IMG/VR virus record: IMGVR_UViG_3300044960_000747
Span: 1 to 36,994 of that record
Strand: one strand, 5' to 3'
Source: a virus
DNA length: 36,994 nucleotides
Made by a program: the position numbers and the translations under genes. Shown here piece after piece: positions 412-36,707 of the stretch (positions are counted from its first letter, which is position 1; each line of letters starts with the position of its first letter). The notes under the pieces were generated by a model, which saw nothing but the letters and a program-made list of their open reading frames with translations, was not told the DNA's origin and searched no databases.

Positions 412-1077
412 ATGGCGACATTCCACCTGGCGAGAATGAACTGGATAGCCGACCTCGACCAGCCGGGGGCCACGGTGATCACGGAGGCCTGGGCGGGGCA
501 TACGGCGGGCTACGTGGCACGGTTGGAGCCGGGCAGGACCAATCCCCTATATGAGGTCGTGCGGCAATTCCTCGATCCGGCCACGGAGGGGCGTAGCGCC
601 TGGGGCAATGGCCGGCGGGTGTATCGGATCGAAGAGCCGGGCGTGTATGAGGCGGAAAGCCGCGGCTGGCAGCGCCAGGTACGGCGGGTATGGTTCGAGA
701 TCGCGGGGGATGGCCGGGTGCGCCCCTGCCTGGACCGTGACGCTGCCATTGCCTCGTTGCACGGCATGACGCTGTCGGAACTCGTGGCGGCCCGCCTGGC
801 GGACTGGACCCAGCGGCCGAGCGACCGCGGTTGGCAGAGGCGGATCGAAAGGGCCCGCCAGGCGAACCAACAGGAAGGACTGCCGCCCTTGGAGGGGACC
901 CCCCGCCAGGTGGATTATGCGGAGGTGGTCCGCCACCAGCGATTGGCCGAGGCTCGCCGGCGTCTGCGGCCTTCGGAGGTGCGGATGCTGTCGGAGGTGA
1001 CCAGTGCCCAGTGGTGGATCGACCACCGGAGGACCCAATGGAGCCGGTTGCTCCTTGCCTTGCGGGCTCCAAGCTGA
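412..1077 (+). CDS. Hypothetical protein, first gene of the early block
   Basis: A 221-residue basic, Arg- and Trp-rich protein with no family I recognise. The start is the ATG at 412, preceded by GGGGAG at 399-404 at normal spacing; an upstream in-frame extension would run through the hairpin repeat and terminator and is rejected. The C-terminal half (residues about 120-221) is predicted mainly helical with many Arg. It is the first gene after the integrase terminator and opens a run of small early genes. A second, 98%-identical copy of its first 64 codons is at 36801-36994, where residue Gln51 is Lys; two further changes are silent, which supports real coding. Confidence 0.75.
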   Translation: MATFHLARMNWIADLDQPGATVITEAWAGHTAGYVARLEPGRTNPLYEVVRQFLDPATEGRSAWGNGRRVYRIEEPGVYEAESRGWQRQVRRVWFEIAGDGRVRPCLDRDAAIASLHGMTLSELVAARLADWTQRPSDRGWQRRIERARQANQQEGLPPLEGTPRQVDYAEVVRHQRLAEARRRLRPSEVRMLSEVTSAQWWIDHRRTQWSRLLLALRAPS

Positions 1078-1146: not shown

Positions 1147-1473
1147 ATGAGCGTAGTGCAGTTTCGGACGAAGGCGCGGGTGCAGTGGACCGATGCGGCC
1201 CGGTGGCGTATCTACCAGACCGTCGATGGCCGGTACCGCGTGGTCGAAAGCCGCTCGCTCTACGGTCTGCCGACGGTATGGTACGCCCAGGTTTACGTGC
1301 GGGAATCCTGGGGATGGTGCTGGGACCTTTTGGGAAGGCACCGCACGCGCCGGGCCGCGGAACAGCATGTTATCAAGGAGGCTGCGAAGGATGCTCGTAC
1401 TGAAGCGAAGAATCGGCGAAGGACTCGTGCTCAGGCTGGCGGACGGACGGACCGTCCGGCTGGAGGTGCTTGA
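1147..1473 (+). CDS. Hypothetical small early protein
   Basis: A 108-residue basic protein. Residues about 20-75 form a compact segment rich in aromatic residues (WRIYQTVDGRYRVV, GWCWDLLGRH) that looks like a small beta domain; the last 35 residues are Arg/Ala-rich. The start ATG follows AGGGGGAAG. The 3' end overlaps the csrA-like gene by 83 bases in another frame, so the two are probably translationally coupled. The family is not recognised. The C-terminal tail could be an accident of the overlap, but the first 75 codons look genuinely coding. Confidence 0.6.
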   Translation: MSVVQFRTKARVQWTDAARWRIYQTVDGRYRVVESRSLYGLPTVWYAQVYVRESWGWCWDLLGRHRTRRAAEQHVIKEAAKDARTEAKNRRRTRAQAGGRTDRPAGGA

Positions 1474-1579
1474 CGCTGGCCGGCACGGGCTGCGCCTGGG
1501 GATCGAAGCCCCGGCGGACATACATGTCCTGCGGGAAGAATTGTGCACGCACGACGCGAAAGGAACCCCCCGTGAATGA
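1391..1579 (+). CDS. csrA: CsrA-like carbon storage regulator, RNA-binding protein
   Basis: A 62-residue protein starting MLVLKRRIGE and carrying the CsrA pattern through GIEAPADIHVLREEL. CsrA is a small dimeric post-transcriptional regulator that binds GGA motifs in mRNA leaders and blocks or stabilises transcripts. Residues equivalent to the E. coli RNA-binding positions L4, R6 and R44 are present (L4, R6, R48 after a 4-residue insertion), so it should be functional. The start ATG at 1391 has AAGGAGG at 1376-1382. Two GGA motifs flank the ribosome site and start, compatible with autorepression. It overlaps the preceding gene by 83 bases and the next by 8. Phage-borne csrA genes are uncommon. 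Confidence 0.88.
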   Translation: MLVLKRRIGEGLVLRLADGRTVRLEVLDAGRHGLRLGIEAPADIHVLREELCTHDAKGTPRE

Positions 1580-2519
1580 GATGACCGTCCGAAGCGAAGT
1601 ACCGGCGCCTCTGGCCCCGGCGGTGCCGCGGGAACAGATCGCCCATCTGGAAACGGTGGCCGGTTGGTGTGAGTCGTTGGCCCGCAGCCCCCTGGGACGC
1701 TTCGAGCGAGCGTTTTGCCTGGCCGCGGCCATGCGGCGCCTCCGCGGCCTGGTCACCGACCAGATGATGGCCGACGTGATGGCCCTGCAGGGTTCTCCCC
1801 TGGGATTCCGGACCGACCGGGACGAGGCCGGGGGCTACCCCTTGAGCGTCGTCAAGGAGGTGGTCATCGAGGCCACGCTCCGCGGGCTGAGACTGGTGGG
1901 CAACGAGGTGAACATCATCGCCGGGCGGTGCTACGTGACCAAGGAGGGGCTATTGCGACTGGTGCGGAACTGGCCGGGCCTGGCCAATCTCCGCTTGGAC
2001 CTCCGGGCTCCCAAGATCGAGGGGGATTGGGCTCTGGTGCCCTGCCGGGCCACCTGGACGCTCTACGGCGAACCCCGGGTCTTGGATTGCACGGCCGAGA
2101 GGTCCATTCCTGTGCGTGTGAACAAGGGGATGATCGTCGACGCCATTCTGGGGAAGGCCCAGCGCAAGCTCTTGGCCCGCATCTATGAGCAACTCTGTGG
2201 GGATGCGGCCCACCTGGCCGACGAGGACGAGACGCCGGCGGGTGCGGACCCATCTGCCGGCAGCGGCGCCCCCTGTCCCGAGGTGGCCGCCCCCAGTTCT
2301 CCGCTGGAGGAGTACCTGCGGCAAATCCACGGGGCTACGGACCGCCGGCAGATTGGCCAGACGGTCAAAATGGCGGCGGTGGACCCGCAATTGTCGGCCG
2401 AGGACCGGGCCCAGGTGGTGCAGGCCGCCAACCGCCGTAGCGGCGAATTGCGGACCGGCAAACCAGAACAGCAGAATCTGATCGATACCCAGGCAAGCGC
2501 ACCAGAAGCAGGATGGTAG
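1572..2519 (+). CDS. Phage early protein, possible single-strand annealing recombinase (RecT-like)
   Basis: A 315-residue protein. The core (residues about 60-200) has a pattern I associate with phage proteins near recombination genes: a GFRTD stretch, then IEATLRGLRLVGNEVNIIAG, then CYVTKEG. The overall order, with a helical N-terminus, a central sheet with GR.Y.TKEG, and a disordered acidic tail (PAGADPSAGSGAPCP), resembles RecT/Erf-type annealing proteins, but the match is by eye only. The start is taken as GTG 1572, with AAGGA 8 bases upstream and overlapping the csrA stop; ATG 1581 is the alternative. It could equally be an uncharacterised replication accessory protein. Confidence 0.45.
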   Translation: MNEMTVRSEVPAPLAPAVPREQIAHLETVAGWCESLARSPLGRFERAFCLAAAMRRLRGLVTDQMMADVMALQGSPLGFRTDRDEAGGYPLSVVKEVVIEATLRGLRLVGNEVNIIAGRCYVTKEGLLRLVRNWPGLANLRLDLRAPKIEGDWALVPCRATWTLYGEPRVLDCTAERSIPVRVNKGMIVDAILGKAQRKLLARIYEQLCGDAAHLADEDETPAGADPSAGSGAPCPEVAAPSSPLEEYLRQIHGATDRRQIGQTVKMAAVDPQLSAEDRAQVVQAANRRSGELRTGKPEQQNLIDTQASAPEAGW

Positions 2520-3884: not shown

Positions 3885-4742
3885 ATGGGCGCGGACTGGA
3901 TTCCCGTGAGCATCGACTTGGCCAGCCGGGAGGAAGTCCTCCTGCTCGCGTCCACGCTACGTCGCTCGCCGGCTGAGATAGTCGGTCTGCTGGTCATCAC
4001 CTGGTCATGGTTTTCGCGCGAGACCCTCGACGGCGTGACCCGTCTGGACGTGGATGCCTTGGCGCGCGGAATTGGCGTGCCCGCATCTTTCCTCCAGGCG
4101 GCTGCTGCCGTCGGCTGGCTCTCCGTCACGGAACATGGCTGCGCGGTGCCCAAGTTCGACCGATGGTTATCTCCAACCGCCAAGCGGCGTACCCTGGAGC
4201 GTTTGCGGCAGGCCAATCATCGGCTGGCTAAGAAGGCCCACGGAATCCGGGAGCCCTGTCACGCTTGTGTCACGCAGATGTCACGCTCGATGCGTGACGG
4301 AAAGACAGTACAAGAACAAATAGAAGTACAAGATCCTCCTCCGACGACTTCGTCGTCGTCGTCGGATCTTGCGCGGCCTCCGCCGCGAAAGACGACGACG
4401 GCGACGACGGCGGAGGGATGCAACGGGTCGGTGAAGGACTGCGCGCTGGGAATCTGCGCCGCGCTGTGGCCAGGCCGGCGGGAACCGATCACCGATAGCC
4501 GCGACCAGCGGTTGCTCTACCAACTGGCCGTGGCCGCCCAGAATGGCCACCGGCCATGGATCCGGCGGCTGGTACAGGCCGCGCGCCAATCCCGCGCCCG
4601 GGCGCCGATGGCTTGGGTGCTGGCCAAGCTGGCGACCTACGCGCCGGAAGGCACGGACGTGGAGCGACTTTTGGCGGCGATCGAGGTACCCGCCTGGGCC
4701 CTGGCCGACCCAAGGCATTGGCCCGATGCAACTGGCGGGTGA
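3885..4742 (+). CDS. Phage replication initiator-like protein (winged-helix N-terminus)
   Basis: A 285-residue protein. Residues 4-110 have the pattern of phage replication/primosome proteins of the O/DnaD type: WIPVSIDL, a run of helices, VITWSWFSRE, LDVDALARGIGVPASF and GWLSV....VPKFDRW, a winged-helix DNA-binding domain. A low-complexity linker (residues about 140-180, Ser/Pro/Thr rich) leads to a C-terminal helical domain (about 185-285) that may contact the helicase. As in phage lambda O, the linker-coding DNA carries inverted repeats (4330-4412) that could be the origin. It lies at the end of the early block, as expected. No helicase or primase gene is visible, so host machinery is probably recruited. 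Confidence 0.65.
   Translation: MGADWIPVSIDLASREEVLLLASTLRRSPAEIVGLLVITWSWFSRETLDGVTRLDVDALARGIGVPASFLQAAAAVGWLSVTEHGCAVPKFDRWLSPTAKRRTLERLRQANHRLAKKAHGIREPCHACVTQMSRSMRDGKTVQEQIEVQDPPPTTSSSSSDLARPPPRKTTTATTAEGCNGSVKDCALGICAALWPGRREPITDSRDQRLLYQLAVAAQNGHRPWIRRLVQAARQSRARAPMAWVLAKLATYAPEGTDVERLLAAIEVPAWALADPRHWPDATGG
4330..4412. other. Candidate replication origin hairpins inside replication gene
   Basis: AAGATCC (4330-4336) pairs with GGATCTT (4364-4370), and GACGAC (4343-4348) with GTCGTC (4358-4363), forming a stem with one bulge; a GCGGCCTCCGCCGC hairpin and repeated GACGAC units follow. The position in the linker region of an O-like gene mirrors the lambda origin. The Ser/Thr codon runs could also produce this by chance. 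Confidence 0.3.
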
Positions 4743-5077: not shown

Positions 5078-5106
5078 TTGACACTTTTTCCGTTGGTATT
5101 CACTCG
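5078..5106 (+). promoter_or_regulatory. Possible promoter for packaging genes (-35 TTGACA)
   Basis: A perfect TTGACA at 5078-5083 follows directly on the terminator and sits about 120 bases before the packaging operon. At 16-17 bp spacing the -10 is poor (around 5100-5106); TATTCA at 5097 is too close. The placement between operons is the main support. Confidence 0.3.
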
Positions 5107-5130
5107 TGCGTGGGGGCGGGCGTACAAAGG

Positions 5131-5203
5131 AGCTAAGAGCGGAGAGCGAAGAGCCAAGACACCGATTCTCGTCTCTCCGCTCTACGCTCTCTGCTCTACG
5201 CTG
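5131..5203 (+). repeat. Type A heptad hairpin element
   Basis: AGAGCNN units, a centre with ACACCGATTCTCGTC, then NNGCTCT units. It ends three bases before the ATG at 5206, so the mRNA start region would be next to a stable hairpin and has no other ribosome site. Confidence 0.9.
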
Positions 5204-5205
5204 CT

Positions 5206-6204: not shown

Positions 6205-6718
6205 GCTCAGTCCCGGGGCGGTTCGCCAGGCCCAGCGGGCGTGGCTCATGGGTTGCCCCCAGGCCCAGATCGCCCAGCGTCTGGGGGTGACCCGGCAGGC
6301 GATCGCCGCCCTGGTGGCCCATTGGCGCGAGGAGTGGCGGGCCGATGCGCTCCGCTGCCGGGACGAGGTGTTGGCCGCCCTGCGCATGTTGCGCTACGAG
6401 GCCTGGCGGCGGCATGGCCAGGCGATGCGCGTCCCGCAGTCCCACGAGCAGATCTTCGAGGAACTGCGGCGAGTGGGGGCTAAGGGCCAGCCGCTCAAGC
6501 GGGTCCTGGGAACCATCCGGCGTTGGGACCAAGCCGGTTGGCTGCGGCTGGTAGCATGGACGATCGAGCACGAGGCACGGCTGTTGGGCGTCTACCGGCA
6601 ACCGGAAGGTGCTGGCCTGGAATTGCGGGTCGCCGGCCGGGCCCCCGAGGATGTGGAGCGGTCCCTGGTGGAGCGGATCCAGAGGTTGTTGGGCCATGGT
6701 GCGTCGGACCATCCCTAA
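6119..6718 (+). CDS. Probable terminase small subunit (HTH)
   Basis: A 199-residue protein with a very basic N-terminus (Lys/Arg-rich to residue 30) and an HTH at about residues 40-65 (GCPQAQIAQRLGVTRQAIAA) followed by WREEW. This arrangement directly before the large terminase is typical of small subunits that bind the packaging site. ATG 6119 follows GGGAGG at 6107-6112. It overlaps the preceding gene by 86 bases in another frame and the large terminase by 23. The Lys/Arg-rich N-terminus is encoded by sequence similar to heptad repeat units (RAKSKE). Confidence 0.65.
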   Translation: MKDSKDQRAKSKEPSSKRRKAARPKKTHKLSPGAVRQAQRAWLMGCPQAQIAQRLGVTRQAIAALVAHWREEWRADALRCRDEVLAALRMLRYEAWRRHGQAMRVPQSHEQIFEELRRVGAKGQPLKRVLGTIRRWDQAGWLRLVAWTIEHEARLLGVYRQPEGAGLELRVAGRAPEDVERSLVERIQRLLGHGASDHP

Positions 6719-8342
6719 AGAGCAGGGAGCAGGGAGCGGGGAGCAGGGAGGAATCCCCCTGCCCCGTGCCCCCCGCCCCCTGCCCCGTGCCCCCCGCCCC
6801 CTGCCCCGTGCCCCCTGCTCTTCGCCCTCCGCCATTTTGGAAGTGCTGCGTGGCGACCCGGATATCTGGCAGGAGGCGATGCTCTGGGGCACGGGCTACT
6901 GCCAGTTTCGCCCGCGGCCGGACCGGCCCGAGTTGTTCGACCAGCAGCAGAGTTTCGTGGAGGACCAGTTGCCGGGGGTGGCCATCCTGATCGGGGGGAA
7001 CGGTTCGGGGACCACCACGGCCGCGGCCGCCAAACTGGCGCGTTTTGTGCTCTACCGCCAGCCTCCGCCCCGGCCCTGTACGCCGTTCTGGGTCTTGTCG
7101 GAGACCTACGACCAGGTATGCGGCGTCTGTTGGGCGGAAAAACTCCTGGGACAGCAATTCCTTCCGGAATGCGAAATCGACTGGGAGAACATCTCCTGGC
7201 TGGACCGGAAGCGAGGCTGGCCCAAGGCGGTCCCCTTGCGTCCCTGGCCCGGGCGCCCGGGCGCCAGCTGGCAGCTGGAGTTCAAGTCCTACGAGCAAGG
7301 CCGCCGGGCCCTGCAGGGCCGGAGCATCGGGGGATTCTGGTTCAGCGAGCAGTTCCCGGTAACCTTGCTTTTGGAGGTGCTCCGCGGCTGCCGGGAATAC
7401 ATGTTCCCCGGGAGTTGCTTCGTGGAGTTCACCCCGGTGGACCCCGAGCTTTCGCTGTGGGTGGAGTCCGTGATGGACGATCCGCCGCCGGGCTGGAAGG
7501 TATATCGCCTCAACACGGAGTGCAACACGAGCCTGGCCGCGGAGTGGCTGCGGAGCTTCAAGGCGGCCTTGCCGGCGGAGATGGCGGCCACGCGGCTTAC
7601 GGGGGCCTTGCCCGGTTGGGAGGGCGCCATTTTCGAGACGTTTTCACCGGCCAGGCACGTGGTGCCCGAAGAGCAGATCGATTTTCCCGCCGGCGTGCAG
7701 TACTTCCGCGGGATCGACTGGGGCGCCAGCGCCCAGCACCCGTTTGCGGCCGTGTGGGCCTGGCGGGACAACACGGCACGCTGGTGCGTGTTCGATGAAT
7801 ACTGGAGCCCGCGCGGAGAGCTGACGCCGCTAGACCACGGGGAGGCGATGGCCCAGCGGGATCAGCGGTGGGAACTGGACCAGGTGACGACGTTCTGCGA
7901 CCCGAGCCGCCCGGACCTGATAAATCTCTTCGGCCAGCAAGGGTGGGCCGTGTTTCCAGCCGCCGGGGCGGGGGGTCCTCGCGTGCTGGAATCCATCGAT
8001 GCCGTGCGGGCACTGTTGGCAGCGGAGGATCCGCCGGGGCGGCCTCGGCTGGTGATTTCCTCGGCCTGCCGGCGGCTGATCGAGGAAATGCGAAAGTACC
8101 GATGGAAACGACCGCCCCGCGGTTCCTGGAACCCTCAGACGCCGCCGCCCCAGCCGGTCAAGCGCGAGGACGACTGCGTCGATGCGCTGCGCTACATGGT
8201 CCACAGCGCCGAAAGGCAATTGTCGGGAAGCCCGCCGGCCAGCGCGGAGACCGGGGGCATCGTGCGGCCGGACGTGCCCATCGCCGCAGGCGCGGCAGGG
8301 CGGGAAGCCCAACTGGCTCGTGGATTCTTTCGGCGGAGATGA
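6696..8342 (+). CDS. terL: Terminase large subunit (odd Walker A, repeat-encoded N-terminus)
   Basis: A 548-residue protein that should package DNA with an N-terminal ATPase and a C-terminal RNase H-like nuclease. The ATPase P-loop is GGNGSGTT at residues 100-107: the invariant lysine is threonine at 106. A Walker B-like FWFSE ends at E218. Nuclease acidic residues are D341 (GIDWG), D402 (FCDPS) and D496 (DDCVDALRY). The only ATG before the conserved region is 6696, overlapping the small subunit; from it, residues about 8-45 are translated from a heptad repeat (EQGAGSGEQGG, then PLPRAPR units). A non-ATG start near 6837 would avoid the repeat. Length without the leader is normal. Confidence 0.85.
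   Translation: MVRRTIPKEQGAGSGEQGGIPLPRAPRPLPRAPRPLPRAPCSSPSAILEVLRGDPDIWQEAMLWGTGYCQFRPRPDRPELFDQQQSFVEDQLPGVAILIGGNGSGTTTAAAAKLARFVLYRQPPPRPCTPFWVLSETYDQVCGVCWAEKLLGQQFLPECEIDWENISWLDRKRGWPKAVPLRPWPGRPGASWQLEFKSYEQGRRALQGRSIGGFWFSEQFPVTLLLEVLRGCREYMFPGSCFVEFTPVDPELSLWVESVMDDPPPGWKVYRLNTECNTSLAAEWLRSFKAALPAEMAATRLTGALPGWEGAIFETFSPARHVVPEEQIDFPAGVQYFRGIDWGASAQHPFAAVWAWRDNTARWCVFDEYWSPRGELTPLDHGEAMAQRDQRWELDQVTTFCDPSRPDLINLFGQQGWAVFPAAGAGGPRVLESIDAVRALLAAEDPPGRPRLVISSACRRLIEEMRKYRWKRPPRGSWNPQTPPPQPVKREDDCVDALRYMVHSAERQLSGSPPASAETGGIVRPDVPIAAGAAGREAQLARGFFRRR
6718..6829 (+). repeat. Type B heptad hairpin element inside terL frame
   Basis: AGCAGGG units, centre GGGAGGAATCCCCC, then CCCCTGC/CCCGTGC units. 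It is read in frame from ATG 6696 into the terminase. Confidence 0.9.
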
Positions 8343-9354: not shown

Positions 9355-9545
9355 GAGCAAAGAGCAGAGAGCAGGGAGCAGGGAGCAGGGAGCGGGGAGC
9401 GGGGAGCGGGGAGCAGGGAGCAGGGAGCGTAGAGCGGAGAGCCAAGAGCAGAGAGACGGGTTCTACGCTCTCTGCTCTCTGCTCTTCGCCCCGAGCCCCC
9501 TGCCCCCTGCCCCCTGCCCCCTGCCCCCTGCCCCGTGCCCCCTGG
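9355..9545 (+). repeat. Composite nested type B + type A hairpin, ~190 nt
   Basis: Type B left arm (AGCAGGG/AGCGGGG units), then type A left arm, a centre with GACGGGTTCTACGC, type A right arm, then type B right arm (CCCCTGC units). The two classes are concentric, so the whole element folds as one long hairpin. It ends 16 bases before the portal start. Confidence 0.92.
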
Positions 9546-9561
9546 TTGAGAGGAACAAGTG

Positions 9562-11787
9562 ATGGCCGAATTGATCCAACCCATCGAGCACAACGGCGGC
9601 CGGCTGTTTGAACTGCCCCCCAATCTCGGCCAGTTCCCCCTGCCCCATGTGGCCACCTTCAGCGGCCTGGTGGATACGGTGGCCCGGGTCTACCGGCCGA
9701 GCGACGAGGCCCTGGCCCACAGTTGGGAAAACGCCCGGTACATGAGGAACGATCCCACGGTGATGGAATGCCTGGAGCACCGGCAGCGCTCGACCGCTCT
9801 TCTGCCGTGGTATGTGGAACCCGAGGACCCGGACGTTGACCAACAGCGAGAACTCGCCCAAAAGATCGAGCGCTTGCTGAACCGCATTCCCCGGTTCATG
9901 CAGTACCGGGAGAACCTGTTGCACGCCCTATGGTACGGGCGTTATGCCGTGGCCCACCGCTGGCGCTGGAAAACCATCGACGGTCGGGATCACCTGGTCG
10001 TGGATGGCTGGTATCCGATCAATGGCGACAAACTCGTCTTCGGCTGGGATGATACCGCCGGCTGCGAGCGCGTGGGCATCCGCGTCAACCCGGCGATCCC
10101 GGAAGGGACGCTGGTGGCGGGCCGCTGGGCGGTGGAGCGGATTCGGCAGGGGATCGAGTACACCAGCGTCGGCACGGCGTATTTTTTGCGGCCCTGGGAG
10201 CGGCCGCTCTTGGCCGTCCACAAGCACTATATCGAGGACGCCCCCTACGAGACGCCGGAACAGGCGGGAACCCGCCACGGCGTGGGCCTGCGGAGCCGGA
10301 TTTACTGGATCTGGTACCAGAAGCAGGAGACCTTGGCCTTTTTGATGGAGTTCCTGGAACGCAGCGCGTTCGGTTTTGAGATCTGGTTCTACCCCTGGGG
10401 CGATCCGGAAGCCCGGGAACGGGCCCGCCGGGCAGCCCTGGAGCGGATCGGGGAACACCGCAATGTAGTGCTCGTGCCCCGGCCCGTAGGCCCCGATGCC
10501 CCGGCCTACGACTACCAGCGGATCGAGCCGAGCATGGCCGGGGCGGAGGCGGCCAAGGAGATCATCCTGGGCTACTTCGGCTCTTTGATCAAGCGGTACA
10601 TCCTCGGACAAACCTTGACCAGCGAGGCGGCCAATACCGGGCTGGGCAGTAACCTCGGGGAAATCCATCTGGCCACCTTCAAACAGATCATCCGCTACGA
10701 CGCCGCCAACCTGGAAGAGACGCTCACCACGGACCTGGTGCGCCCCCTGGTGGCGTATAACTGGCCCCAGTACGCCCGGGTGGCATTTCGCTTCCGAATC
10801 CGCACCGAAGACCCGAATATCCAGGAGAAACTGGAGACGTGGCAGAAGGCCTTCGAGATGGGATTGCCCCTGCGGGCCCAGGACGTGCGGGACCTGATCG
10901 GCGCGACGGCACCGGCCGAATCGGACGAGGTGCTCCAATCCCCCTCGGTACCGTCCCTATCGTCCGGCATGGGCGGGCAGCCTCCCGAAACCGTGGGTTA
11001 TGCAAGGGCAGCGCTTACCCGCTACGGCTTGCCCCCGGGCCTGCCCCGGAACCCCCGACCCGGTCAAACCGCCAGGATCGGGGACAAAACCTATATCTTC
11101 GACCCGGAAACGCACCGGTGGAGACTGTGGGACCAGCCCGCATCGCGGCCCAGCGAACCTCCGCGGCCCGAAGTGCCCTCTGCCGAACCTCCCGCCCAGG
11201 CAGCACCCGCCCGGCCCTTGCAATCCCCCTTGCCGCGGGTGGATTTCCAGGCCAGCAGCCCGAAGCGGTTCGTTCGCTTCCGGGACCAATTGCCCAAGGA
11301 CCGTCTCGCCTTCCTTTCACGCTATACTGCCCAGGAGATTGCAGCTAAAATCGAAAAAGGGGCCAGAATCTACCAGACGGCCGACGGCACGGCTGGCTAC
11401 ATGCTGGTCCCCCTCGAAGGACGGCCCGGACAGTACGACCTGGGCAACGTGTTCCGCCTGGAGCACGGGGTACCAGGCGCGGGCGGGGCGGCCGTGGCCA
11501 AGGCGATTAGCCAGGGGGCCACGACCTTGGATTGCATCGGGCCCCAACTGGCGAAGCTCTATGCGCGATTCGGATTCAAGGTCTGGAAGGTGGACGCCTG
11601 GGATGACCAGTACGCCCCCCCGGATTGGGATTACGAGCAGCACGGCCGCCCCAACATCTACTACATGTACTACGCGGGCGAAACCCGCGATGAGGAGGAA
11701 ATCCGCCGCCGGTATGAGACACGATTCTATCCAGAACTCTATCCCCAACAATATCCTGCTGGTTACTCAGGAAAGCCCATCCCATGA
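9562..11787 (+). CDS. Portal protein (DUF935/Mu gp29 family) fused to acetyltransferase-like C-terminal domain
   Basis: A 741-residue protein; DUF935 portals are usually about 450-520. The portal part (residues about 20-465) shows the family signature ILGQTLTSEAANTG, then LGEIHLATF, then LVRPLVAYNW. The portal forms the dodecameric channel at the capsid vertex. After a proline-rich linker (about 495-560) comes a domain at about 565-735 with ATTLDCIGPQLAKLYARFGF and APPDWDYEQHGRPNIYYMYY. That pattern resembles GNAT-like domains fused to or encoded beside phage structural and toxin proteins. The start is ATG 9562 (GTG 9559 is possible) with AGAGGAA upstream. The fusion is seen directly; acetyltransferase activity is inferred. 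Confidence 0.85.
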   Translation: MAELIQPIEHNGGRLFELPPNLGQFPLPHVATFSGLVDTVARVYRPSDEALAHSWENARYMRNDPTVMECLEHRQRSTALLPWYVEPEDPDVDQQRELAQKIERLLNRIPRFMQYRENLLHALWYGRYAVAHRWRWKTIDGRDHLVVDGWYPINGDKLVFGWDDTAGCERVGIRVNPAIPEGTLVAGRWAVERIRQGIEYTSVGTAYFLRPWERPLLAVHKHYIEDAPYETPEQAGTRHGVGLRSRIYWIWYQKQETLAFLMEFLERSAFGFEIWFYPWGDPEARERARRAALERIGEHRNVVLVPRPVGPDAPAYDYQRIEPSMAGAEAAKEIILGYFGSLIKRYILGQTLTSEAANTGLGSNLGEIHLATFKQIIRYDAANLEETLTTDLVRPLVAYNWPQYARVAFRFRIRTEDPNIQEKLETWQKAFEMGLPLRAQDVRDLIGATAPAESDEVLQSPSVPSLSSGMGGQPPETVGYARAALTRYGLPPGLPRNPRPGQTARIGDKTYIFDPETHRWRLWDQPASRPSEPPRPEVPSAEPPAQAAPARPLQSPLPRVDFQASSPKRFVRFRDQLPKDRLAFLSRYTAQEIAAKIEKGARIYQTADGTAGYMLVPLEGRPGQYDLGNVFRLEHGVPGAGGAAVAKAISQGATTLDCIGPQLAKLYARFGFKVWKVDAWDDQYAPPDWDYEQHGRPNIYYMYYAGETRDEEEIRRRYETRFYPELYPQQYPAGYSGKPIP

Positions 11788-12032
11788 GCGCAGCCGAACA
11801 CCCTCAAGCGACCAAGCCCTTCGTGCCGATTCCCACTCAACTTCCGGAGCCTGTTCGCCCCGATCGCAGCCTTCCTCCCGAGGAGTACGCCAAGGCATTG
11901 GAAGAATACGAGCGGGCCATGAAGCAGTTTTGGAGAGAGTACACGTTCGGGGCGAATTACGAAGAGAATCCGCTTTACAAGCAGCCCTACGCGGACAATG
12001 AGTGGGAAGCCATAAAAGAGCTTATCCTCTAG
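11784..12032 (+). CDS. Small acidic protein, tandem paralogue 1
   Basis: An 82-residue protein starting MSAAEHPQATKPFVPIPTQL and ending NEWEAIKELIL. It overlaps the portal stop by four bases (ATGA), so it is translationally coupled. It is closely similar along its whole length to the next gene: shared LPPEEYAKA, EEYERAMKQFW and GANYEENP. No known family. The middle looks like one amphipathic helix. Given the position it may be a minor head or morphogenesis component. Confidence 0.75.
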   Translation: MSAAEHPQATKPFVPIPTQLPEPVRPDRSLPPEEYAKALEEYERAMKQFWREYTFGANYEENPLYKQPYADNEWEAIKELIL

Positions 12033-12089
12033 GTTCCCCGAGCTGAAGCCAGCAAGTTACCTTTGCGGCTACCGACGAAAGGGCTATCC

Positions 12090-12344
12090 ATGAGCGCAGC
12101 CGAACAACCCCAAGGGCATAAACCGTTCGTGGAGATTCCGACTCAACTTCGCGAGCCTGCCCCTCCCGATCCCAACCTCCCTCCCGAGGAGTACGCCAAG
12201 GCATGGGAGGAATACGAGCGGGCCATGAAGCAGTTTTGGAAGGAGGACTTGTACGGGGCGAATTACGAAGAAAATCCGGCCTATCAGGCCAGGAAGCCGT
12301 ATTGGGATAACGAGTGGGAGGCCGTCAAAGACCTCATCCTCTAG
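12090..12344 (+). CDS. Small acidic protein, tandem paralogue 2
   Basis: An 84-residue protein, paralogue of the gene before it, starting MSAAEQPQGHKPFVEIPTQL and ending NEWEAVKDLIL. The two diverge mostly at charged and loop positions while keeping the LPPEEYAKAWEEYERAM helix and the C-terminal NEWEA motif, implying selection on the protein. ATG 12090 is preceded by GAAAGGG. The in-frame start at 12063 lies in the intergenic gap and breaks the paralogy, so it is rejected. The 57-base gap between the paralogues contains no hairpin. Confidence 0.72.
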   Translation: MSAAEQPQGHKPFVEIPTQLREPAPPDPNLPPEEYAKAWEEYERAMKQFWKEDLYGANYEENPAYQARKPYWDNEWEAVKDLIL

Positions 12345-12366
12345 GTCCTGAAGCATCCCGCCAGCC

Positions 12367-12518
12367 AAGAGCAGGGAGCAGGGAGGGGGGGGCAGGGAGC
12401 AGGGAGCGTAGAGCGGAGAGCTAAGAGCGAAGAGCTAAGAGCGGAGACACAGATTCTGGTCTCTTCGCTCTACGCTCTCTGCTCTCTGCTCTTCGCCCCC
12501 TGCCCCCTGCCCCCTGCC
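12367..12518 (+). repeat. Composite nested type B + type A hairpin
   Basis: Outer AGCAGGG units, inner AGAGCNN units, centre gaCACAGATTCTGGTC, inner NNGCTCT, outer CCCCTGC. Concentric order as at 9355-9545. Confidence 0.92.
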
Positions 12519-12535
12519 GCCGGCCTGATCCGCCC

Positions 12536-12730
12536 TTGACTCGTCCCGAGCCCGATCGTCACACTCGCCAGGAGGAGAACCATAGCCGCGCGGCCGAGGC
12601 TCGCCGCGAACTGGACCGCTTGCTGGCCGTAGCGTGCCACCCGGAGTTTACAGGTCGGGTGGGGATTGAGATCAGCGTCCAGCGAGGTCGGCTGCTGCGG
12701 CTGCGGGCCTCCCTGGACCAATACCGCTAA
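12536..12730 (+). CDS. Possible small protein, TTG start
   Basis: A 64-residue reading frame with a TTG start and no clear ribosome site. The second half (GRVGIEISVQRGRLLRLRAS) has a beta-strand pattern seen in short phage proteins, and the N-terminal half is helical and charged. It lies between two hairpin elements and just before a strong terminator. Coding status is uncertain; the frame has no disturbing features but could be chance in GC-rich DNA. Confidence 0.42.
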   Translation: MTRPEPDRHTRQEENHSRAAEARRELDRLLAVACHPEFTGRVGIEISVQRGRLLRLRASLDQYR

Positions 12731-12810
12731 GAGCTAAGAGCGGAGAGCGAAGAGCGGAGAGCCAAGACACCGATTCCGGTCTCTACGCTCTACGCTCTCT
12801 GCTCTCTGCT
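12729..12810 (+). repeat. Type A heptad hairpin element
   Basis: AGAGCNN units, centre with ACACCGATTCCGGTC, NNGCTCT units; starts on the stop codon of the small upstream frame. Confidence 0.9.
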
Positions 12811-12835
12811 ACCACAGCGGGCGCCTGAGCACCAG

Positions 12836-12879
12836 ACCCGCTTTCGCTCCCACGGTTGGGAGCGGAAGCGGGTTTTTTT
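12836..12879 (+). terminator. Strong rho-independent terminator before head genes
   Basis: Near-perfect stem of about 17 bp (ACCCGCTTTCGCTCCCA with TGGGAGCGGAAGCGGGT, one pyrimidine/purine-run mismatch), loop CGGT, then T7 at 12873-12879. It separates the packaging/portal block from the protease-capsid block. No convincing promoter is visible in the 54 bases between it and ATG 12934. Confidence 0.9.
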
Positions 12880-14382: not shown

Positions 14383-14469
14383 GAGCAGGGGGCAGGGAGC
14401 GGGGAGCAGGGAGGAAATCCCCCTGCCCCGTGCTCCGTGCCCCCTGCCCCCTGCCCCGTGCCCCCTGCT
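14381..14469 (+). repeat. Type B heptad hairpin element
   Basis: GCAGGGA/GCGGGGA units, centre GGGAGGAAATCCCCC, CCCCTGC/CCCGTGC units; ends 17 bases before the decoration protein start. Confidence 0.92.
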
Positions 14470-14486
14470 GAAAAGGAGCCCACGAC

Positions 14487-15974: not shown

Positions 15975-15987
15975 GGAGCGGGGACCC

Positions 15988-16088
15988 AAGAGCAGGGAGC
16001 AGGGAGCGGGGAGCGGGGAGCAGGGAGGAAATCCCCCTGCCCCGTGCTCCGTGCCCCCTGCCCCGTGCCCCCTGCTCCCTGCCCCCTG
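15988..16088 (+). repeat. Type B heptad hairpin element
   Basis: AGCAGGG/AGCGGGG units, centre GGGAGGAAATCCCCC, CCCCTGC/CCCGTGC units; four bases before ATG 16093. Confidence 0.92.
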
Positions 16089-16092
16089 AACC

Positions 16093-17597: not shown

Positions 17598-17767
17598 GGA
17601 TTTTCCGCGGGCTGGCGGCCTGCCTGGCCGGCCCCGACCGCGGGATGTTCCGTTCGGCCAGCGACGAAGACAGTGAGGCGGTCGAATTGGCCTACGAGGA
17701 CCTGATGGCTCGGTGGTCCTCCCGGACGATCGAGGTCCCCGAGGACGCCAACCTGGACCTGTTGTAA
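17133..17767 (+). CDS. Tail assembly chaperone, -1 frameshift product (GT-like)
   Basis: If ribosomes slip by -1 on A AAA AAA at 17447-17453, reading continues as KKNARPAADLAGAYGLAALG to a stop at 17767, giving 211 residues. The downstream frame has good coding character: aromatic-rich WYGRNWSSDRG, CERIESRWALRIF, and an acidic C-terminal helix SDEDSEAVELAYEDL. The heptamer fits the X XXY YYZ rule and the zero frame exactly. The alternative explanation is a one-base indel (natural or sequencing) in the homopolymer; both give the same long product. The last part overlaps the second copy of a 37-bp repeat. Confidence 0.75.
17447..17454 (+). other. Slippery A8 site for programmed -1 frameshift
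   Basis: CTA AAA AAA ACG in the zero frame contains the heptamer A AAA AAA. Homopolymers of eight A are otherwise rare in this GC-rich window. No downstream pseudoknot could be verified by eye. Confidence 0.7.
17706..17742 (+). repeat. 37-bp exact direct repeat, copy 2
   Basis: Identical to 2995-3031. Here it encodes MARWSSRTIEVP near the C-terminus of the frameshifted chaperone. Confidence 0.9.
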
Positions 17768-17848
17768 AGAGCAGGGAGCAGGGAGCGGGGAGCAGGGAGC
17801 AGGGAGGAAATCCCCCTGCCCCGTGCCCCCTGCCCCCTGCCCCGTGCT
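17767..17848 (+). repeat. Type B heptad hairpin element
   Basis: AGCAGGG units, centre GGGAGGAAATCCCCC, CCCGTGC/CCCCTGC units; ends four bases before ATG 17853. Confidence 0.92.
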
Positions 17849-17852
17849 ATAT

Positions 17853-18926
17853 ATGTGGCGCGACCTGGAAGAGACCTTGTTGCGACTGGCCCGCCGGCAG
17901 GAGGCCGCCGGCGTGGAACATCCCCTCCAGGCCCTGGTGGCCCGCTTGGCGGTTGCGGGGCCGGCGGTGATCGAGCATGCGCCGCCGGCCGAAAACGCCC
18001 GCCAATTGTCGCGGATGCTCCAGCGCCCGGGCGCCGAGCCGCCGCCCGCCGGGCCGCGGGCCGAACACGCCCATCCCTTGTTATGGATGCTCCAGCGCCC
18101 GGGCGCCGAGCCGTCGCCCGTTGGGCCGCGGGCCTCCGGCCAGGAGGAGGGCGCCACCCGGGACCTGGCCCGCGCACTGCGTGCGCTGGCCGACCGTCTG
18201 GCCCGCGCCCGACAACCGAGCTCGGAGGAAACAGCGCAGCGCACGGCCCGTGCCCCCACTCCCGCCTCCCACCCCGCGGTCCAGACCGCTACGCGGCTAG
18301 CGACTTTGCGCGGGCCGGTCTCCGGAGTGCTGGGCGTGCTGGGCGCCCTGGCCACGTTACCCTTTGCTATCGAGAAGTTCTCTCGGGCTCTGGTGGCCTA
18401 TGGGGATCGGCTTTTGGAGGCCCGGCGGGCCGGGGCCCTCTATGCCCCCGAGGCCCTGGGGGCCCTATCCCAGCTGGAATGGCGCCGGCGGATGCAGATG
18501 GCCCAGACGGCGCGAGACACCGCGGCGATGACCGCTGCCCTGGCCAGGGCCCAGGCCAGGACGGAAGAGATCTGGCAGCCCGCCCGGGCCGCCTGGATCA
18601 ATACGTCCCTGCGGTTCCAAGTCGGCCTGCACAGTTTCCTGGAGCCGTTCCAGCGGGGCATGGCGGGCATCTCGCAGTACTTCGCCCGCATGGCCGATGG
18701 CGCGATGGCGACCTTCCACGACATCACGGCGTTTCTCAACAAGGTAGGCAAGCCGTTCGGGCTGAATCTGCCCGTCTGGGAGCTGCCCAAGAAACCCAAG
18801 GAGGACGAGACGCTCGGGCACTTCCTCAAGACGCTGGCGGGACCCTGGCATGGGCTGGTGCCGCCCCCCCAGCCACCCCAGCGCCTGCCGCGGCCCCTGT
18901 GGCCGCCTCGGCCCTGGCAGCAATGA
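17853..18926 (+). CDS. Short tape-measure-like tail protein (tentative)
   Basis: A 357-residue, mostly helical, Ala/Arg/Leu-rich protein. It lies directly after the chaperone, where the tape measure is expected. Residues about 50-105 contain a duplicated segment (MLQRPGAEPPPAGPRA and MLQRPGAEPSPVGPRA). A hydrophobic stretch at about 155-180 (GVLGVLGALATLPFAI) could be the membrane-active segment found in tape measures. The C-terminus is proline-rich. At this length it would specify only a very short tail, so it may be a minor tail protein or one part of a split tape measure. ATG 17853 has no ribosome site after the hairpin. Confidence 0.5.
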   Translation: MWRDLEETLLRLARRQEAAGVEHPLQALVARLAVAGPAVIEHAPPAENARQLSRMLQRPGAEPPPAGPRAEHAHPLLWMLQRPGAEPSPVGPRASGQEEGATRDLARALRALADRLARARQPSSEETAQRTARAPTPASHPAVQTATRLATLRGPVSGVLGVLGALATLPFAIEKFSRALVAYGDRLLEARRAGALYAPEALGALSQLEWRRRMQMAQTARDTAAMTAALARAQARTEEIWQPARAAWINTSLRFQVGLHSFLEPFQRGMAGISQYFARMADGAMATFHDITAFLNKVGKPFGLNLPVWELPKKPKEDETLGHFLKTLAGPWHGLVPPPQPPQRLPRPLWPPRPWQQ

Positions 18927-22941: not shown

Positions 22942-22944
22942 CCC

Positions 22945-23790
22945 ATGACAGTGGCAAGCGGCAAGCGGCAAGCGGCAAGCGGAGAGCGGCAAGCGGCAAG
23001 CGGAGAGCGAAGAGCCAAGACACAGATTCTGGTCTCTCTGCTCTACGCTCTCTGCTCTCTGCTCTTGGCCTGCCCCGGATGGGCCGCCGGGCCTAACCAG
23101 GGGATCGATGGACCGTCCCAGGCCCCGCCTTATACGATCCTGGAACATCGGCTATCGGGCGATTGGGAATCGGGAGTGTGGGACATCGAACCGGCCCTGC
23201 AGCCGTTCAGCCAATGGCGGGTCTCCAGCGACGGCCTGGGGGTGCTATGGACGGCGCCCCCCGGCCGCTACACGCTCCGGGTGATCTCGGTCCACTGGGC
23301 AGAAAAAAGGGTCGCCCAGTGGCGTTTGGTGGTCACCATCGGCGACAAGCCCCCCGGGCCTGAGCCCAAACCCCCCGAACCGGAACCGCGGCCGGACCAG
23401 AAATACCAAGTGGTGATCTTGATCGAGTCGGGCAATCTCGACGATCTGCCCAGCGGACAGCTGGAAATCGTGGCCAGCCGCAAGTTCCGGGCCGCACTCC
23501 AAGCGGCCGGACACCAGCTGGTAGCCATCGTAGACCGCGATACGCCCCCCAGCGACCGCCTGCGACCTTTCTTTGCTGCCGCCAGCGGAAAATCCCCTCC
23601 CCTGCTATTGAGGGCCCCTCTGGCAGGCGGACAGATCGAGGCCATCCCCCTGCCCGCCAATATCGACGATACGCTCCAAGCGCTCCAGAAGTCGCCAGGC
23701 ACATGGGCACCACAGGTTCCCCATTCGGGAACCGCCCCCGCGAACCCCTCGTGCCCCGGCGGCACGTGCCCTTTGCCCAGGAGGTGGTAA
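22945..23790 (+). CDS. Secreted or lipoprotein-like protein with repeat-encoded signal peptide
   Basis: A 281-residue protein. Residues 1-28 are basic (four SGER/SGKR-type units), residues 28-42 hydrophobic (ILVSLLYALCSLLLA), and LLAC at 40-43 fits a lipobox; WAA at 46-48 could instead be a signal peptidase I site. All of this is encoded by a type A heptad hairpin (22957-23066). Residues about 60-130 form an Ig/PKD-like beta domain (VLWTAPPGRYTLRVISV). After a Pro/Glu linker (PGPEPKPPEPEPRPD), residues 150-255 look thioredoxin-like in layout but without a CxxC. It is co-transcribed with the papain-like gene two bases downstream. Localisation is inferred; function unknown. Confidence 0.65.
   Translation: MTVASGKRQAASGERQAASGERRAKTQILVSLLYALCSLLLACPGWAAGPNQGIDGPSQAPPYTILEHRLSGDWESGVWDIEPALQPFSQWRVSSDGLGVLWTAPPGRYTLRVISVHWAEKRVAQWRLVVTIGDKPPGPEPKPPEPEPRPDQKYQVVILIESGNLDDLPSGQLEIVASRKFRAALQAAGHQLVAIVDRDTPPSDRLRPFFAAASGKSPPLLLRAPLAGGQIEAIPLPANIDDTLQALQKSPGTWAPQVPHSGTAPANPSCPGGTCPLPRRW
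22957..23066 (+). repeat. Type A heptad hairpin element translated as signal peptide
   Basis: AGCGGCA and AGAGCGA units, centre aagaCACAGATTCTGGTC, then NNGCTCT units. The left arm encodes the basic n-region and the right arm the hydrophobic core of a signal peptide. Confidence 0.92.
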
Positions 23791-24586: not shown

Positions 24587-24595
24587 GAGCATAGT

Positions 24596-24710
24596 AGCAG
24601 GGAGCAGGGAGCGGGGAGCAGGGAGCAGGGAGCGGGGAGCAGGGAGCAGGGAGCGGGGAGGAAATCCCCCTGCCCCGTGCTCCGTGCCCCCTGCCCCATG
24701 CTCCCTGCCC
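24596..24710 (+). repeat. Type B heptad hairpin element
   Basis: AGCAGGG/AGCGGGG units, centre GGGAGGAAATCCCCC, CCCGTGC/CCCCTGC units; 13 bases before the holin-like start. Confidence 0.92.
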
Positions 24711-24723
24711 TAAGGAGCGGACC

Positions 24724-25487: not shown

Positions 25488-27848
25488 GTGCCGCAAGCGG
25501 AGTTGGGCGCCGACGTGCCTCTGTTATATCCGGACCGCGATGGCCGGCTGGCAGAGTTTTTGGACCATTGGCTGCCCCTGCAGATGGCCAGCCTCTTTGG
25601 CCCAGAGGCCTATCGGACGGCGGGTGTCCATCGCCCCAGGACGGCGATCTTTTTCGACGAGATTTTAAGCAACAATCGCCGCGTCCTGGGGGGAAGCCTG
25701 AGTGACGACCAGACGGGATTTCCCGTCTATCCGTGGAGCCACCTGCCGCCCGCCTGGATCCCCAACAGCGTCTGGATACCCACGGGCGCCAGCCGCTGGT
25801 CCATCGGGCTGTTCTGGCTGGAGTGGTCGGCCTGGCAGGCCTACAGCCCCTATGATATCCGCTGGAATGTGGGCACGGCGGAAGACCCCTGGTACATCCC
25901 GCTCGAACCGCTCGTCGCGTTTCGCGCCACCGAAGACCTCTGCCTGGCGGTCTATACGGATGCCCGCTTCCGCGAGAGCCAACTGGCCGCCCACCTGGAC
26001 CCCGGGGAACCCGATCCGTTTTATCCCGGCACCAATTGGGCCCTGTTGGTCGCCCAGTTGCCCTTTGCCGACCGGGTGCGGATGAGCACCCGGGAGGATA
26101 TCCCCTGGACCGACCTCTGCCAGGTCTGGCCGGGACGGGAATGGTTCCGCGATCTGCCGGCGGGGCTGGCCCTGGATGCCATCGCCGCTTGTCTGGGAAA
26201 ACGCATCATCTACCATCCCGTCGACCAATATTACCTGGCTCAGACGATCCTCGACGCCGGCGGGGGTCTGGCCCAGAACGACGCCGCTGTGGCGGTGGGG
26301 GGACTCGCCAGCCTGCCGGCCACCCCTAACCAGAAGCTGCGAGGCGTAACCGTCTCCCTGCCTATCCTGCTCTATTACGAATACGATCAGGGACAGAGCG
26401 CCTGGCGCATGGACCCCAGCGGCAAGCGCTACAGCCTGGAATTCGTGAGGGACACCCAGGGCCGCAAGCACAAACACCTCGCCTGCACCCACCCCGTGAA
26501 AATGCGGCCCTCCGGAGAAATCCTCAATCTTGATATGACCGGCCTGGTGGTCGAGTATCTGGCGGACCTCGTGGCCGAGTGGCATGACACGCAACCCACT
26601 TACCTCTTGAGCCGTACCCCCGATGCCCACTGGGTCCCCACCGCCTATGACGATTGGGTCTGGTACATGGCCGAGGCCCGTGACGGGGGATATTGGCCCA
26701 AGTGCCTGGTGGCCTCGATGCCTCCCGACTGCCACCCGGTCGAATTCCCCATCCACGACGATCCCCCGGTCCGCGTCTCGTCGAGCAGTTCCTCCTCCAG
26801 CAGCTCCAGTTCCTCGTCGAGCAGTGGGTCCTCGGCCAGTTCCTCCAGCGGAAGTCCTTCCCAAAGCAGCCAATCGGCGGAATCGTCCTCAGCCAGTTCG
26901 TCGGAATCCCGATCCTCCGGCTCGGCCAGCGCCAGCGGCTCGGGCAGCCCGTCCGGCTCGGCCAGCGCCAGCGGCTCGGGCAGCCCGTCCGGCTCGGCCA
27001 GCGCCAGTGCTTCGGGCAGCACAAGCGGAAGTCCCTCGGCCTCTGGTTCGGCCAGCGCCAGCGGCTCGGGCAGCCCGTCCGCCGGGCCGAAATCGTCGTC
27101 CAGCCCTTCGTCGTCCAGCCGCTCGTCATCCCAGAGCCAGTCGCTCTCGGCCAGTGGCTCCGGCAGCGATGGGGGCATCGTCTGGCCCCCCTGGACCGGC
27201 TGGGAGAGTTCTTCCTCCGGCAGCCCCAGCGGGTCGAGTTCGTCCCGCTCTAGCGCCAGTTCCAGCGGGTCCAGCGCGTCCAGCGCGTCGGCCAGCTCCT
27301 CGGCCAGCGCCAGTTGCGACACCTCGGGCGCGGCCTGCCCGGCCCCGGAGGGCCAGGAATTCTTCATCGGAGCCGCGGGCGGTATCTACGAAATCCCGTG
27401 CTGGGCCACCCGGCTTTATCTCGGGTTCCACGACGGCTACCAATGGAACAACAACGCTGGCAGCGTGTACGGTTTCTACCGCTGGATCTATCCGGGCCAG
27501 AATTTCGGTGCGGACAACAACGTCGGCGTAGGGGCCACGTGCTGCTTGTTCTTCGCTTACGCCCCGGACAACGCCATTGGGCCCTGGGGCGAGATGCCCA
27601 TGAGCAGCTTTCGCCCGGTGAGCATCCCCATTCCCCCCAACGCCATCGCCGTCCGATTGTTCAGTTTCGCCGGCAATTGGACGTTCAATCATGGCGACGG
27701 AGATACCTACTACGGACCCGATGGGGGTCCGCCCTATGTGCCCACCAACAGCGCCTACATGAGCCCCGCGTACAACTCGCAGAACTTGCGGACCATCACC
27801 ACCGGCAGCGGCGCCCTGGTGGGCATGTTCGGCGTGTCGTGCCCCTAA
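25488..27848 (+). CDS. Large tail protein with serine-rich linker and C-terminal lectin-like domain
   Basis: A 786-residue protein, GTG start with GGAGG at 25474-25478. Residues 1-425 form a globular, Trp/Tyr-rich domain likely to attach to the tail. Residues about 430-610 are almost only Ser, Ala, Gly and Pro, including a 12-residue unit (SGSASASGSGSP) repeated in DNA blocks of 36 bp near 26916-27077. Residues 615-786 are a beta-rich Cys-containing domain with ATRLYLGFHDGYQWNNNAG, a pattern seen in carbohydrate-binding beta-sandwich domains. This suggests a receptor-binding protein on a long flexible stalk. Three sugar-modifying enzymes follow, so the linker is a candidate glycosylation target. 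Confidence 0.7.
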   Translation: MPQAELGADVPLLYPDRDGRLAEFLDHWLPLQMASLFGPEAYRTAGVHRPRTAIFFDEILSNNRRVLGGSLSDDQTGFPVYPWSHLPPAWIPNSVWIPTGASRWSIGLFWLEWSAWQAYSPYDIRWNVGTAEDPWYIPLEPLVAFRATEDLCLAVYTDARFRESQLAAHLDPGEPDPFYPGTNWALLVAQLPFADRVRMSTREDIPWTDLCQVWPGREWFRDLPAGLALDAIAACLGKRIIYHPVDQYYLAQTILDAGGGLAQNDAAVAVGGLASLPATPNQKLRGVTVSLPILLYYEYDQGQSAWRMDPSGKRYSLEFVRDTQGRKHKHLACTHPVKMRPSGEILNLDMTGLVVEYLADLVAEWHDTQPTYLLSRTPDAHWVPTAYDDWVWYMAEARDGGYWPKCLVASMPPDCHPVEFPIHDDPPVRVSSSSSSSSSSSSSSSSGSSASSSSGSPSQSSQSAESSSASSSESRSSGSASASGSGSPSGSASASGSGSPSGSASASASGSTSGSPSASGSASASGSGSPSAGPKSSSSPSSSSRSSSQSQSLSASGSGSDGGIVWPPWTGWESSSSGSPSGSSSSRSSASSSGSSASSASASSSASASCDTSGAACPAPEGQEFFIGAAGGIYEIPCWATRLYLGFHDGYQWNNNAGSVYGFYRWIYPGQNFGADNNVGVGATCCLFFAYAPDNAIGPWGEMPMSSFRPVSIPIPPNAIAVRLFSFAGNWTFNHGDGDTYYGPDGGPPYVPTNSAYMSPAYNSQNLRTITTGSGALVGMFGVSCP
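26916..27077 (+). repeat. 36-bp tandem units encoding the Ser-rich linker
   Basis: Units start at 26916, 26952, 26988 (diverged 3' end) and 27042 (diverged 5' end), each encoding SGSASASGSGSP or a variant. They imply expansion by slippage or unequal recombination. Confidence 0.85.
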
Positions 27849-27896: not shown

Positions 27897-29228
27897 ATGA
27901 TCCAGTTCGAGCGGGTATACGTCATCAACCTCCGCCGCAGGCCCGACCGCCTGCGGGCCTTCTGGGAACGGCTGAAAGCCTGCCAGTGGCCCTTTGGGCA
28001 ACCGATCGTCTATCCGGCCATCGAAGGCGACAAAGTCGGCGTGCCCCCGGAGTTCACCCAGGGCGGCGGGGCCTATGGTTGCCGGATGAGCCACCTCCGC
28101 ATCCTCCAGGATTGCCTCATGGAGGATGTCCCCTCCGTGCTGATCCTGGAAGACGATGCGGATTTCCGGCCCGATTTCGGCCCGACCGTCCAGGAGTTCT
28201 TGGCGCGGGTGCCCGACGATTGGGAAGGGATCATGCTCGGTGGCCAGCATCACGTGCCGCCCGTACCGGTGCGCGAGGGTGTGGTCCGCGTGCGCAACGC
28301 CCAGCGGACCCACGCCTACGCCGCCCGAGGCCGATACCTCCGCTGCCTGCAACAACGCTGGGGCAACGCCACCGTGCATATCGATTGGCTGATGCGAGAT
28401 TGGCAGCACCAGTTTTTGGTTTATGCCCCCAGCCGCTGGCTGGTGGGCCAGGCCGGCGGCCGCTCCGATATCCGGGGCGCCGAAAAGCCCAAGGAATGGT
28501 GGCTCCCCCCCTCGGGCCAGGAACCCGTGGTGATCCTCCGCGCCCCTCGCCTGGTGATGGAGGCCCTCAGAGACCGAGGCTGGCACAGCGGCATGGAACG
28601 CGATCCGGCTACGGGCTTGGACCTGGGTTTGATCCAATGCTTCGAGCCGGGACTGCCGCCGGCCGAGAGCCGGGATCGCCTCCACCGCTGGATCCACACC
28701 GTACAGTGGGAATGCACCGGCGGAGGCATGGTCTGCACCCTATGGCACCCCGAGGCCAGATTGGAGATGGTCCAGGCCGCCTGGTCGGGTCCCGTGATGC
28801 TCGTCGAAGCCGATTCCATCGAGGCGGCCGAAGCCCAACTGCCCGAGTCGCTCCGCCAGGCCCTTGCGGGTTCGGCCACGGTGCGACTGTTGCCCATCGT
28901 CTTGCTGGACGCCCCGCGCCCGGTGGTGGAGCGGCTGTTGGAACTGGGCTGGCATATCGGCTACTGGCGCAACCCCGAGACCGGCATCGACCGCGGGCTG
29001 GAGCGGATCATGGGACCAGAGACCCCGCCGGACCAGCGCGTGGGGGAATTGGCCAAATGGTGCATCGAGCTACGGCGCGAGGCGGTCCGAGACGGAAAGA
29101 TCCTGGCCGTCTGGCACCCCGAGATCGACGAGACCCTCTTGGCCCGGGCCACGGCCGACCCGGTAATCCCCATCCGCGCCCGGTCCGTGGACGATGCCAT
29201 CGCGCAGTGGCAAAAGACAGGCCAATAA
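27897..29228 (+). CDS. GT25-family glycosyltransferase with duplicated C-terminal domain
   Basis: A 443-residue protein. Residues 1-185 are a GT25 domain: VYVINLRRRPDR at 7-18, GCRMSHLRILQ at 61-71, and ILEDDADF with the metal/nucleotide-sugar acidic residues at 85-89. GT25 enzymes transfer hexoses to lipooligosaccharide or, in animals, to collagen. Two C-terminal copies of a domain of about 105 residues follow (209-315 and 332-438): each starts with VV..LL or VILRAPR, contains GWH.G..R.P.TG.D.GL, and has a LWHPE/VWHPE motif. ATG 27897. It lies directly after the Ser-rich tail protein. Confidence 0.82.
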   Translation: MIQFERVYVINLRRRPDRLRAFWERLKACQWPFGQPIVYPAIEGDKVGVPPEFTQGGGAYGCRMSHLRILQDCLMEDVPSVLILEDDADFRPDFGPTVQEFLARVPDDWEGIMLGGQHHVPPVPVREGVVRVRNAQRTHAYAARGRYLRCLQQRWGNATVHIDWLMRDWQHQFLVYAPSRWLVGQAGGRSDIRGAEKPKEWWLPPSGQEPVVILRAPRLVMEALRDRGWHSGMERDPATGLDLGLIQCFEPGLPPAESRDRLHRWIHTVQWECTGGGMVCTLWHPEARLEMVQAAWSGPVMLVEADSIEAAEAQLPESLRQALAGSATVRLLPIVLLDAPRPVVERLLELGWHIGYWRNPETGIDRGLERIMGPETPPDQRVGELAKWCIELRREAVRDGKILAVWHPEIDETLLARATADPVIPIRARSVDDAIAQWQKTGQ

Positions 29229-29321
29229 GCGGCAAGCGGAGAGCGAAGAGCGGCAAGCGGAGAGCGAAGAGCCAAGACACAGATTCCGGTCTCTCTGCTC
29301 TACGCTCTCTGCTCTTCGCTC
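29225..29321 (+). repeat. Type A heptad hairpin element
   Basis: AGCGGCA and AGAGCGA units, centre aagaCACAGATTCCGGTC, NNGCTCT units, followed by AAGGAGG at 29325-29331. Confidence 0.9.
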
Positions 29322-29367
29322 CGTAAGGAGGAACTACGGACAACCGCCCCCTGGGGGCCATCGACTT

Positions 29368-31506: not shown

Positions 31507-31520
31507 TAAACCCCAGAAAA

Positions 31521-31634: not shown

Positions 31635-31643
31635 ACACAGGCC

Positions 31644-36701: not shown

Positions 36702-36707
36702 GGGCGC

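Follow-up and report, generated by a model that had tools for sequence, protein, structure and literature searches.

The viral genome analyzed here, a stretch of 36,994 nucleotides referred to below as the window, carries a csrA-like gene (1391 to 1579, plus strand) whose 62-amino-acid product is assigned, from its sequence and its modeled fold, to the CsrA family. On balance, we consider it probable that the product of this gene is a functional and divergent phage CsrA/Rsm protein that represses host mRNAs at GGA sites and that is made together with recombination and replication genes, since it is located in their operon. The product would fold as the usual swapped dimer and would bind GGA in single-stranded stretches that overlap a Shine-Dalgarno sequence. 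Shortly after the phage enters or is induced, the translation of a set of host mRNAs would be blocked, or these mRNAs would be destabilized, and host physiology, possibly including defense gene expression, may be shifted in favor of the phage. A rewiring of host translation, as put forward in an earlier note on this DNA, is plausible by analogy: other phage RsmA proteins are proposed to have such an effect on the host, and the plasmid protein RsmQ was demonstrated to have it. The find is real but largely expected, because phages with csrA are already known.

The assignment was based on Pfam, PHROG, a fold model, codon usage, and a residue alignment. The translation of the open reading frame (ORF) at 1391 to 1579 (MLVLKRRIGEGLVLRLADGRTVRLEVLDAGRHGLRLGIEAPADIHVLREELCTHDAKGTPRE) matched Pfam family PF02599 (CsrA) over residues 1 to 53 with an E value of 2.7e-12 and 46.9 bits, compared to a cutoff of 27, and it matched phrog_9500, annotated as CsrA-like regulator, with an E value of 2.8e-9. 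Codon usage is coding-like from 1391 on but not in the same frame from 1193 to 1390, which indicates that the start at 1391 is correct. The RNA-binding positions retained in the product are L4, R6, R7, G37, A40-P41, V46, R48 (corresponding to R44 of the Escherichia coli protein), E49, and E50; E46 was also counted among the retained RNA-contact positions, whereas H43 is lost, with L47 in its place. L4 and R44 were described as the critical RNA-contact residues of CsrA (PMC7652899), and both are present, the latter as R48. For the fold model, which was built with 12 relatives in the input, the best 14 PDB fold matches were all CsrA, RsmA, or RsmE, including some RNA-bound structures, with probabilities mostly between 0.98 and 1.00, E values of 0.02 to 0.2, and TM scores of 0.4 to 0.6. 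The model is that of a monomer in which beta1 and beta5 are unformed, and its mean pLDDT is modest at the RNA-binding ends (72 for residues 1 to 10; 65 and 58 for residues 51 to 62). Taken together, the Pfam and PHROG matches, the retention of L4, R6, R7, and R48, and the CsrA folds bear out the claim of the earlier note that the window encodes a CsrA homologue with intact RNA-binding residues.

The phage protein shares with CsrA, RsmA, and RsmE of bacteria (PF02599; 2bti, 2jpp, and 2mfc) the core, L4, R6, R7, the AP motif, the R44 equivalent with the two glutamates that follow it, and the fold match. It differs from bacterial CsrA in that 19 of the 53 aligned positions are identical to the E. 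coli protein, in four extra residues between beta1 and beta2 relative to that protein, in the loss of H43, and in scores below the NCBIfam CsrA equivalog cutoffs (38.4 versus 70.1 bits for TIGR00202 and 37.6 versus 73 bits for NF002469). The sequence-based assignment is thus one to the CsrA family and does not imply that the phage protein is an ortholog of the bacterial global regulator. L005 and L043/L055 have insertions at nearly the same position between beta1 and beta2. The closest relative found has 48% identity, and identity to GenBank phage homologues amounts to at most about 45%. A phylogenetic tree of 23 CsrA proteins (58 columns) provided no placement, with most forks open, and the phage protein forms in this tree a branch of ~4 changes per column, far from any characterized CsrA. 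As for clues to the host, scanning genomes with the CsrA alignment yielded only Paenibacillus genes that share MLVLKRRI, and nothing useful emerged when the capsid gene or the repeats were searched against phages or plasmids.

The first and last 605 bases of this IMG/VR virus record (1 to 605 and 36390 to 36994) form a direct repeat with 98% identity (~13 substitutions), and the record is therefore probably a full unit of ~36.4 kb; the near-identical direct ends suggest a circular or permuted genome with strain variation in the assembly. With the ends joined, the gene order is integrase, gene 412, gene 1147, csrA, gene 1572, and the rep-like gene 3885. The tyrosine integrase (35291 to 36418, plus strand; phrog_1, E value of 1.9e-11), which in this arrangement is upstream of the csrA operon, marks the phage as temperate, and an HTH_17 excisionase-like gene is found at 34585 to 34797 (plus strand). 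Gene 412 (412 to 1077, plus strand; 221 amino acids), the first of the probable early operon, has a weak match to phrog_16123, for which no function is annotated. It is followed by gene 1147 (1147 to 1473, plus strand), which encodes 108 amino acids without a known family. The replication-initiation-like protein (3885 to 4742, plus strand; phrog_2509, E value of 5e-22) is the third in the order csrA, RAD52-like gene, rep. Surrounded by these genes, csrA is found in a probable early block, in agreement with the location given in the earlier note.

The gene that overlaps the csrA stop (1572 to 2519, plus strand; GTG start, 315 amino acids) probably encodes a single-strand annealing protein of the RAD52 superfamily, as judged from its model and its gene neighbors. 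It had no Pfam, PHROG, or NCBIfam match, none of 14 aligned family members matched Pfam or PHROG, and a PDB profile search returned only an unrelated match (E value of 0.48). For the family model (pLDDT of 84), the first 11 PDB fold matches were all human RAD52, at modest scores (E values of 0.02 to 0.2 and TM scores of 0.17 to 0.33). The partnership with an exonuclease or rep gene expected of an annealing protein was observed: a DUF3799 nuclease is encoded directly upstream of the RAD52-like gene in L061, and a rep gene is found downstream of it in four records. The pairing of DUF3799 with recT is typical of phage annealing proteins (PMC8093625). Members of the family (1572 to 2519; L060 to L079) contain the motifs GSPxGFRTD and GLRLxGNExNII, and they possibly represent a new group of single-strand annealing proteins.

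In the earlier note, two GGA motifs around the ribosome site and start of csrA (1378 to 1392) were taken as a leader with a spacing compatible with dimer binding and autorepression. The two motifs exist, although at 1377 to 1379, within the Shine-Dalgarno sequence AGGAGG (1376 to 1381, plus strand), and at 1389 to 1391 (plus strand), where the motif overlaps the start codon (GGATG; context AAGGATG). Both are inside the coding sequence of gene 1147, in the frame of which they are read as AAG GAG GCT GCG AAG GAT, and the tail of this gene extends 83 bases into csrA. Since the coding signal of gene 1147 extends to 1389 and the csrA frame is used from 1391, the proposed leader is upstream coding sequence, and translating ribosomes would sweep the two GGAs; a translational coupling of both genes is possible. 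The GGAs are spaced by 9 nt, just short of the 10 to 63 nt that a CsrA dimer can bridge, with an optimum above 18 nt (PMC7652899). Furthermore, they are not distinctive, since at least two GGAs between -30 and +5 occur in 11 of the 33 genes of the window and in 24% of random 35-mers, and 13 phage csrA leaders did not differ significantly in GGA enrichment from 143 other genes (P = 0.13). Local folding of the leader also provided no support for autorepression. In contrast to the autoregulation of E. coli CsrA, which involves a GGA in an untranslated leader and a bridgeable spacing, the phage motifs are translated, 9 nt apart, and no commoner than at other genes; autorepression of csrA at its own leader is therefore not supported.

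Alternative readings differ in the targets that the protein would have. It may be a local regulator with targets mostly in its own operon or among other phage mRNAs, setting when the RAD52-like and replication genes, rather than host genes, are translated; we consider this unlikely. In its favor, csrA recurs beside recombination genes. An alignment including the L019 homologue retrieved relatives of gene 1572 in 20 viral records, and scans of viral contigs with the terminase, the portal, gene 412, and the single sequence of gene 1572 retrieved no relatives. csrA and the RAD52-like gene were found together in 5 of these 20 records (the near-identical G029 and G030, G031, G036, and the L019/L075 record), where the counts for both families come from pattern-based scans and cover part of the existing total. 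Each of the five has both genes on the same strand with no more than about 2.5 kb separating them, and the window, L019, L061, and L063 share the arrangement csrA, RAD52-like gene, rep on a single strand. For the three records that were not selected by distance, this proximity corresponds to a combined Fisher P value of 0.015 under uniform placement, which is suggestive only, because early genes cluster anyway. In a separate lineage (L002, L003, L004, L012, and L014), csrA is preceded by genes for an ERF annealing protein and a candidate nuclease, and in G007, one of 2 csrA-bearing records among 12 related by the major capsid protein, it is located beside a candidate replication gene; portal and terminase relatives are present within these capsid-related records. 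The ribosome site of gene 1572, downstream of csrA, also contains a GGA. However, the starts of csrA and its neighbors are no richer in GGA than those of other genes, the GGA sites preceding csrA are themselves translated, and csrA is absent from 15 of the 20 records of the RAD52-like family, indicating that the RAD52-like gene does not need it. A lower probability is given to the broader view that environmental phages inherit csrA, a new RAD52-like annealing protein, and the replication initiator together as a conserved early module, in which CsrA would time translation of the phage recombination and replication genes in addition to, or in place of, acting on the host.

Lower still is the probability that the protein has no target set of its own and interferes with the host Csr system, either by forming mixed dimers with host CsrA or by titrating its antagonists. 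This would agree with the finding that plasmid RsmQ interacts with the Rsm proteins of its host as well as with RsmY/RsmZ (PMC9928087) and with the tendency of csrA-bearing phages toward hosts that have CsrA (PMC8450108), but the strong sequence divergence of the product makes mixed dimers less likely, and no CsrB-type RNA was found in the phage with Rfam. That csrA is a recently acquired passenger or a decaying gene without function in the phage appears very unlikely. Whereas its patchy distribution, exemplified by the capsid-related records searched, and its long branch would fit a passenger, the gene has an open frame, coding-like codons, a good ribosome site of its own, intact RNA-contact residues, and tight overlaps with both neighbors.

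The reading that we favor, namely, a functional repressor of host mRNAs, is in line with the retention of csrA genes in unrelated phages, repeatedly adjoining recombination genes, and can be compared to known systems. Phage csrA genes are of a known kind and were surveyed in 2020 and 2021; they were found in 30 of 2,517 phages (PMC7366521) and in GenBank and IMG/VR (PMC8450108). RsmA represses CRISPR-Cas, and homologues are encoded by phages; since cas mRNAs are bound by RsmA, these homologues were suggested to suppress host CRISPR-Cas (PMC8450108). In Burkholderia phage JC1, the gene for the CsrA/RsmA protein gp47 is between the portal and capsid genes (PMC9144972), whereas csrA of the window overlaps genes of a recombination operon. 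Vibrio phages also have a small csrA gene in their genomes; that of Vibrio phage 431E45.1, like that of Providencia phage PSTCR8lys, is found, as here, among small genes that mostly have no assigned function. RsmQ, which binds GGA/AnGGA and changes host behavior (PMC9928087), is likewise a CsrA homologue on a mobile element, but it is borne by a plasmid in Pseudomonas and its function was measured, whereas that of the phage gene is deduced from sequence. Linked in several phage lineages to a recombination operon, the divergent copy described here extends the range of phage CsrA sequences and suggests where to look. A single phage regulator of 62 residues could seize many host mRNAs; to our knowledge, there are few direct functional tests of global RNA-binding regulators in phages.

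A number of other features were observed. (i) Elements composed of 7-nt units (GAGCGGA/GCTCTCT type), mostly intergenic, are present between many genes, namely, at 300 to 411, 1078 to 1140, 5095 to 5205, 6690 to 6800, 9360 to 9558, 12345 to 12530, 12715 to 12855, 14383 to 14486, 15975 to 16092, 17745 to 17870, 22942 to 23070, 24587 to 24723, 29229 to 29330, and 31507 to 31643. They are predicted to form long hairpins of about -0.45 to -0.7 kcal/mol per base. As a consequence of this folding, only 6 of the 76 GGAs in 15 intergenic heptamer-repeat regions are predicted to be unpaired; together with an Rfam search of the phage for CsrB-type RNA that returned no family, this led us to reject a CsrB-like sponge. 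(ii) The capsid-related record G007 contains a CRISPR-like array of ten 36-nt repeats at a 66-nt spacing (L055:5350-5991). Directly after it is a 410-amino-acid ORF (L055:6057-7289) without a Pfam, PHROG, or clear PADLOC match; located near the candidate replication gene and csrA, this ORF possibly encodes a compact CRISPR effector. (iii) A pair of small genes (11761 to 11972 and 12067 to 12278; 82 and about 90 amino acids) with 82% identical DNA is located between the portal gene and the gene at 12856. (iv) The 786-amino-acid ORF at 25488 to 27848 contains a long serine/glycine-rich low-complexity stretch at 26600 to 27250 (SSSSS..., GSGSPSGSASASGS). (v) The late part of the phage encodes a glycosyltransferase family 25-like protein (27897 to 29228) and a sugar-nucleotide epimerase/dehydratase (31644 to 32648), which are possibly involved in surface-polysaccharide modification.
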